Shown here piece by piece: positions 16,906-17,728 of a stretch of 37,173 bases of DNA. The notes beneath the pieces were generated by a model. The model did not search any database and was not told the DNA's origin. It saw nothing but the letters and a program-made list of their open reading frames with translations. The translations under genes were made by a program, and so were the position numbers. Origin of the DNA: Candidatus Amesbacteria bacterium (lineage in GTDB: Bacteria > Patescibacteriota > Microgenomatia > CAZETR01 > Amesbacteraceae); NCBI GenBank assembly GCA_027371535.1, contig DAHXMV010000009.1:1-37173 (forward strand), in the 5' to 3' direction. The stretch's first letter is position 1. Each line of letters opens with the position of its first letter.

Positions 16906-17728
16906 TAAAGTTAAACTAATGAAGAAGCTGGTGCTGGCAGCGGGACTTTTAGGGTGGCTGATCTGGCCGGGACTGGTGGCGGCCCAGACTCCCACTACTG
17001 CAGTCAGAGACCTGTTTTCCAAAAATGACGGAGAGGCGACCCTGGGGGTGGCCAAAATAATGGAGACCAAAGCCCAAAATCCTCCGGACGGGAGCATCTT
17101 GTCGTCCAGCGAACAGGGAGCGGTTTTGTCAATAACACCGTATGATTCCCAGGTGGTGGGGATCGTGGCCCGGGATGCGGCGATTATTCTGACCAATAAT
17201 ACCGCCCAAAACGGCATACCGGTGATCTCCAACGGGACGGTTTATGTGCTGGTGTCATCACTCTTAGGAAATCTGAAAAAGGGAGATATGATAACCACTT
17301 CCACGATTCCGGGTGTGGCAGTAAAAGCCGTTGATTCTGGATATATCATCGGTTATGCGCTGGAAGACTATACCAGTTCCGATCCTAAACAAACCGGTAA
17401 AATTGCAGCGGATTTAAACCTGCATTATTTCAATGCCAAACCGACAATTCCCGGTTCGCTGACGGATATTTTAAAAATTGCCCTGTTTCCTACCAAGGAA
17501 GGGCCTTCACCTTTTCTGAAATATCTGATAGCGGCGTTGGTAGTAATCGGATCGTTTATTTTAGGCTTTATGACGTTTGGACGGGCGGCATCAAAGGGAG
17601 TGGAGGCACTGGGCAGAAATCCGGCCGCCAAAAGTATTATCCAACTGGGAATTATCTTTAACGTGGTTATTGTGGTGGCGATAGTGGCTGCCGGGCTGAC
17701 AGTAGCATTCTTGATTCTCAGGCTATAG
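16898..17728 (+). CDS. exported domain fused to an F-ATPase c-subunit-like hairpin lacking the ion-binding acid
   Basis: 276 residues. A signal peptide (about 1-30, cleavage after VAA) precedes a domain (about 75-160; [44 protein letters not shown]). That domain resembles the C-terminal 'peptidase G2'-type domain of giant surface and tail-fibre proteins. Residues 207-274 form a two-helix hairpin with the loop [15 protein letters not shown], a close match to the c-subunit loop that contacts F1. In c subunits the proton/sodium-binding Glu or Asp lies 18 residues after the loop proline; here that place is Val260, and neither helix has an acidic residue. Topology fits: loop inside, fused domain outside. 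It lies in the c position of the operon, before b. A ring that cannot carry ions is inferred. Confidence 0.75.

Follow-up and report, generated by a model that had tools for sequence, protein, structure and literature searches.

The 37,173-nucleotide stretch of Candidatus Amesbacteria DNA analysed here (the window) raises the question of what an ATP synthase-like operon does when the subunit expected to carry ions across the membrane lacks the acid that binds them. A preliminary description, made from the letters alone, had picked out a c-subunit-like hairpin at positions 17521 to 17728 in which Val260 replaces the essential Glu or Asp, and proposed that a ring of such subunits should not translocate protons or sodium. 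The gene that encodes it is the first of seven in an operon (c-like/b/delta/alpha/gamma/beta/epsilon) that follows the atp order minus subunit a (Table 1). We favor the view, with a probability of about 0.6, that this operon encodes a rotary ATPase of F-type descent that does not transport ions and passes its torque to a surface fibre.

Table 1. Features of the c-like gene, its operon and the adjoining fibre-like gene (window coordinates)
Feature	Coordinates	Strand	Basis or remark
c-like protein of 276 aa; a signal peptide and an ectodomain precede a C-terminal TM hairpin that lacks the ion-site acid	16898..17728	+	
Predicted signal peptide, residues ~1-29	16898..16984	+	hydrophobic helix 2-22, then AQ
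Extracytoplasmic beta domain, residues 49-178, phage-appendage-like fold	17042..17431	+	AlphaFold2 and structure comparison
c-subunit-like helical hairpin, helices 204-240 and 242-275, invariant RNP loop	17507..17725	+	
Val260 codon, position of the ion-binding Glu/Asp	17675..17677	+	alignments
b-like peripheral stalk, 233 aa, N-terminal TM, single helix 3-205	17742..18443	+	weak PF00430, AlphaFold2, operon position
delta/OSCP-like subunit, 162 aa	18444..18932	+	PF00213 above cutoff
alpha-like subunit, 488 aa, arginine finger kept	18937..20403	+	PF00006; longer TTG start at 18793 in ORF list
gamma-like rotor shaft, 296 aa	20411..21301	+	PF00231 above cutoff, nearly full length
beta-like catalytic subunit, 482 aa, catalytic residues all kept	21305..22753	+	PF00006
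epsilon-like subunit, 95 aa, N-terminal beta-sandwich only, inhibitory helices absent	22757..23044	+	PF02823 above cutoff
MerR-like HTH protein with two TMs, 363 aa	23320..24411	+	only here and in nearest relative (L033)
Giant fibre-like surface protein, >4,223 aa, runs off contig	24501..37172	+	degenerate MerR-like HTH, weak TM near residue 95, fibre repeats

The hairpin itself proved to be real. In an AlphaFold2 model of the c-like protein built from 75 aligned orthologues (mean pLDDT of 89), the hairpin has a pLDDT of ~97 and superposes on solved c-ring subunits, mostly with a root mean square deviation of 1.2 to 1.8 Å over ~70 residues and with TM-scores of ~0.73 to 0.88 (by target length); at the sequence level, it gives a profile match to canonical c. 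Its description as a c subunit holds for the fold but not for the protein as a whole, which is no free-standing hairpin: the two helices form the C-terminal part of a 276-residue protein with the topology of a secreted one. The predicted arrangement (signal peptide, ectodomain outside, loop inside) corresponds to the orientation of canonical c. The hairpin fold and the polar RNP/RQP loop are ATP-synt_C-type traits, and yet the c-like protein reaches the cutoff of no c-subunit model; the sole PF00137 (ATP-synt_C) match in the window genome is the canonical c of contig C11. A PHROGs search with the c-like protein returned no match, and structure comparison indicates that its ectodomain resembles phage appendage folds, i.e., parts of virus tail fibres. 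The c-like proteins of three Parcubacteria-type loci (L114, L136, and L145) are longer, at ~524 to 557 residues, with the extra sequence preceding the common ectodomain.

Val260 lies 18 residues past the loop proline (Pro242). A phmmer comparison with the c subunits in PDB, which is weak (E = 0.087), and a gapless profile-profile alignment of the hairpins with canonical CPR and Escherichia coli c (67 columns, E = 1.2e-8) both place the essential Glu on Val260, confirming the replacement; no acid was placed in the ion-site column by alignment to c subunits, and the agreement of three independent alignments rules out a misaligned site. Among 75 orthologues, the residue at this column is Ile in 32, Val in 16, Leu in 12, Ala in 6, Phe in 5, Gly in 2, and Thr in 2, and is acidic in none, so that the loss is conserved and a local mutation at Val260 is ruled out. 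The Arg-Asn-Pro coupling loop, on the other hand, is kept in all 75, a contrast in conservation that excludes chance. Gly239 and Ala244 are likewise each found in 75 of 75; position 255 is Asn in 68 sequences and His in 7, and position 259 is Thr in 57 and Val in the window protein. No acid occurs in TM1 of any orthologue, ruling out a shift of the ion-site acid to that helix, while acids in TM2 are rare and confined to its cytoplasmic end (positions 247, 249, and 251, in 1 to 2 of the 75 sequences). The further claim that neither helix holds another acid is correct for the membrane part, but Glu236 sits at the cytoplasmic end of the first helix, within the loop motif (V/M)EAxGRNP common to true c subunits.

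In E. coli c, the RQP loop, the counterpart of RNP, couples the ring to gamma-epsilon, and ion transport by F-type enzymes requires both the c carboxylate and an Arg residue in subunit a. The RNP loop is invariant where the ion site is lost, and the selected feature would thus be mechanical coupling rather than ion binding. Since the TM1 glycine motif GxGxGxG, which packs canonical c-rings, is not kept in the c-like hairpin, the size of a ring and even its formation are uncertain.

The genes downstream supply both rotor (gamma and epsilon) and stalk (b and delta) parts, with gamma, delta, and epsilon passing their Pfam cutoffs and b weak by sequence. The P-loop Lys/Thr, catalytic Glu, adjacent Arg, and Walker-B Asp are present in all 73 beta-like proteins, as is the arginine finger in all 76 alpha-like proteins; epsilon-like proteins measure 81 to 134 residues across the loci (median, 90). 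In a tree with just two canonical CPR sequences, the beta-like proteins group together (support, 98/100), separately from the canonical betas of CPR and E. coli. The window beta-like subunit exceeds the NCBIfam atpD cutoff by 3.5 bits (466.3 versus 462.85), and automated annotation would therefore label the gene ATP synthase beta. No PF00119 (subunit a) match was found in the operon, and no conserved multi-TM gene that could substitute for subunit a was recognized in the neighborhoods of the loci. Two upstream genes in the window, at 15211 to 16905 (membrane metallopeptidase-like) and 14828 to 15211 (a 127-residue TM protein), were rejected as missing Fo parts, being absent beside other clusters. 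The former encodes a putative metalloprotease with an HEYLH motif and no Pfam family; farther upstream, at 12271 to 13314, lies a gene for a subtilase-family protein (PF00082).

The expectation that no protons or sodium would be moved is thus supported by the loss of the ion site and, independently, by the missing subunit a, with the ring itself a prediction from sequence. These are two defining features of F1Fo, and the operon product should not be called an ATP synthase.

We compared 80 named loci of this kind in GTDB genomes of Levy-, Roizman-, Woese-, Ames-, Davies-, and Shapirobacteria, WWE3, and some Parcubacteria, including the complete WWE3 genome CP006914 and the closed Woesebacteria genome CP055307. 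Several loci are cut by contig ends; an alpha-like gene is present in 77, gamma-like in 77, beta in 74, b in 73, delta in 70, and epsilon in 67. The exact seven-gene order is found in 56 of the 80, and the order c(-b-delta)-alpha-gamma-beta is found in 71. The window genome has one complete canonical F1Fo, on contig C11. It also carries a second F1-like cluster without subunit a on contig C3 (G000:C3:2575-8176, locus L038), with an acid-less c-like protein of its own and a divergent fibre gene.

Whether the cluster could use canonical Fo parts can be judged from relatives. A full-length c-like protein is encoded in 46 of the 127 nearest genomes, and 15 of these 46 have no PF00119 match genome-wide; in one further relative, the match is weak and partial and contains an internal stop. 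Canonical c is missing from 16 of 25 cluster-bearing genomes, including the single-contig genomes G045, G274, and G392, and in these 16 the best beta match is a diverged beta-like protein, with no canonical beta. Because subunit a or canonical c is absent from these relatives, their clusters have no canonical Fo to draw on. The F1-like cluster is the sole F-type ATPase of the cells without canonical c, and its sequence indicates that an ion gradient cannot be used to produce ATP. In one survey of ATP synthases, ~30% of sampled CPR were found to have lost genes for a canonical complex (PMC10656485).

The neighborhood of the cluster points to the cell surface. A large fibre-like open reading frame of one family adjoins the cluster in 35 of the first 40 loci and is often divergently transcribed. 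These proteins span 700 to 4,400 residues and usually consist of an intact MerR/BldC-type HTH, one TM at about residues 80 to 220, and fibre-like repeats, with Pfam matches to MerR and, in one, Peptidase_S74; the HTH of the window's giant matches neither Pfam nor NCBIfam. When 127 genomes were searched with a profile of the N-terminal region, which was trained on cluster-adjacent genes, 21 of the 22 best near-full-length matches (E up to 3e-35) lay on contigs with a c-like cluster; weaker relatives of the fibre family also occur in genomes without the cluster. The c-like ectodomain recurs in the C-terminal third of some adjacent giants (residues 3582 to 3988 of 4404 in one and 2937 to 3068 of 3441 in another), and the c-like protein and the fibre thus share a building block. 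The giant of a Daviesbacteria locus (L034, 2-7930) contains an intein splicing domain (PF14890).

These data can be assembled into a model in which alpha3beta3, held static by b and delta, would hydrolyze ATP, and gamma-epsilon would rotate and, via the conserved loop, drive a ring of c-like hairpins. With the ion path absent, torque would not be spent on pumping but would cross the membrane to an extracellular crown of ectodomains, which may move, tension, or assemble the adjacent fibre protein in adhesion, surface movement, or host contact. The parts of this model differ in strength. Loss of ion transport is well supported, and we consider it very likely that the complex is ATP driven and does not translocate ions. 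Ring formation, rotation, and a surface task are what we infer beyond this, and delivery of mechanical work to the cell surface or fibre is a plausible proposal that we hold at slightly below even odds. Since subunit a is absent, the anchoring of the b stator against turning is a weak point of the rotary model.

Other readings account for parts of the same evidence. The F1-like engine could instead power export or assembly, helping to secrete, fold, or extend the giant protein, with the hairpins forming a port or anchor in the membrane and no crown that turns continuously. A giant secreted protein does adjoin the cluster in 35 of 40 loci, the F1 relatives FliI and SctN are secretion ATPases, and the type 2 ATPase of Mycoplasma has likewise been suggested to act in translocation (PMC3369863). 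However, the alpha and beta proteins are F1-like, the best score against a FliI/SctN family being 198.9 versus a cutoff of 604.75, and the retained full-length gamma, delta, b, and c loop would be superfluous for a secretion ATPase; we regard this reading as unlikely. The intact MerR/BldC-type HTH and single TM that begin most giants could also suggest a signalling device, in which the giant is a membrane-tethered regulator, the F1-like complex reports or controls surface contact, and ATP hydrolysis gates the signal. This would leave the conserved rotor and stator parts unexplained, and in the window's giant the HTH is degenerate and unmatched in both family databases, making such a device improbable.

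It is conceivable that ions are moved after all, through a neutral polar site (Asn255/His and Thr259) and an unrecognized replacement for subunit a. The prevalence of Asn or His at position 255 and of Thr at position 259 in the orthologues fits this idea, but the window protein has Val259, TM1 and the membrane part of TM2 are acid-free in 75 of 75 sequences, no conserved multi-spanning neighbor gene was found near the clusters, and the carboxylate and subunit-a Arg are known to be needed for F-type transport; we consider a cryptic pump improbable. The complete canonical F1Fo on another contig of the window genome would allow the c-like protein to join a true c-ring as a regulatory rotor subunit and to use canonical subunit a. 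Such a mixed ring is scarcely credible given the 15 of 46 cluster-bearing relatives without subunit a, the 16 of 25 genomes without canonical c or canonical beta, and a cluster that itself supplies b, delta, alpha, gamma, beta, and epsilon and whose beta stands in a separate clade (98/100); borrowing of canonical a and c is contradicted by the genomes that have no canonical Fo. Finally, the losses of subunit a and of the ion-site acid might be read as decay of a duplicated atp operon, an explanation to which we give almost no credence: it is already contradicted by intact reading frames, by invariant catalytic residues and loop, and by synteny kept across many lineages, including genomes without the canonical enzyme.

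Compared with canonical F1Fo, including the contig C11 copy, the cluster retains the order of genes (c-b-delta-alpha-gamma-beta-epsilon), has alpha, beta, gamma, delta, and epsilon subunits homologous to the canonical ones, and keeps the catalytic residues and a c-type hairpin with an RNP loop. It differs in lacking subunit a and the ion-site carboxylate, in the signal peptide and ~130-residue ectodomain of its c-like protein, in an epsilon without inhibitory helices, and in a beta that belongs to a clade of its own. N-ATPases (alternate F1F0) are likewise second F-type clusters found besides a canonical one, but they pump ions with a carboxylate-bearing c, and the window alpha and beta fall far below the cutoffs of TIGR03324/TIGR03305 (346.4 versus 750.5 and 408.8 versus 752). 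Rotary ATPases with an acid-less c are also represented in ProAD, where 20 "non-catalytic" F/N-ATPase candidates with c lacking Glu/Asp were noted with no further analysis (PMC11738941). To be counted in that work, a cluster needed alpha, beta, gamma, a, and c (PMC11738941), and the present family, which has no subunit a and a c-like protein missed by PF00137, was probably uncounted there. We found no earlier description of a CPR family without subunit a and the c-subunit acid among openly licensed PubMed Central papers; the family would add a new variant to the F1-like rotary ATPases that do not translocate ions.

The nearest functional analogues are the F1-like ATPases of Mycoplasma. Type 2 (G1-ATPase, gliding) and type 3 (F1-like X0, MIB-MIP, antibody cleavage) have no recognized Fo (PMC3369863, PMC11864180, PMC12994834) and, like the window cluster, combine an F1-like engine without a recognized ion-conducting Fo with nearby surface-protein machinery. 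Protein 5 of these clusters (MSC_0620/MMOB1650) starts with a signal peptide and ends in a pair of TM helices separated by a short loop (PMC3369863, PMC12994834, PMC11864180). As far as published descriptions allow comparison, this is the plan of the window c-like protein (signal peptide, large domain, two C-terminal TMs), and the analogy suggests that protein 5 may also be an ion-inert c hairpin; trypsin data have suggested that part of it is cytoplasmic (PMC3369863). The Mycoplasma clusters include a 12-TM protein (protein 1) and, in contrast to the window cluster, lack separate b and delta subunits and a recognized c. The window alpha and beta are well below the NCBIfam cutoffs for MMOB1660/1670 and MSC_0619/0618 (350.6 versus 600, 271.6 versus 520, 380.7 versus 570, and 367.2 versus 850), and G1-beta has the lowest score among the PDB betas listed. 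A wider scheme, in which CPR bacteria possess a widespread class of mechanical rotary motors, each with an F1 engine that turns an ion-inert c-ring and an extracellular crown on this ring that drives a giant surface fibre, and Mycoplasma X0 (protein 5) is a second ion-inert c-ring, independently or commonly derived, is one that we put forward tentatively and with some doubt.

Many tiny uncultured bacteria, then, probably burn ATP in an ATP synthase-like motor for mechanical work at the cell surface rather than making ATP with it. If this is true, F-type ATP synthase annotations resting on alpha, beta, and gamma matches are wrong for CPR genomes that have only the cluster without subunit a. The family would be a case in which nature has uncoupled the F1 motor from ion transport while keeping stator, shaft, and ring loop, and would make a purely mechanical output of an F-type ring testable. 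It would also provide hypotheses for how wall-less gliding mycoplasmas send F1-like torque across the membrane and for how episymbiotic CPR bacteria power their contact with surfaces.

Some of the loci contain additional genes. In seven Woesebacteria-type loci (L121, L123, L124, L127, L143, L148, and L151), a cofactor-independent phosphoglycerate mutase, matching PF06415 and PF01676 in the two loci tested, lies inside the F1-like operon between the c-like and b-like genes; in L146, it is split. Another glycolytic enzyme, phosphoglycerate kinase, is incorporated into the G1-ATPase of M. mobile (PMC11864180). In Levybacteria-type loci (L041, 2612-3553; L046, 3040-3975; and L044, 13269-14207), a gene of ~312 codons is located directly upstream of the c-like gene, and its product has a Fic/DOC domain and an HTH in the two cases tested.
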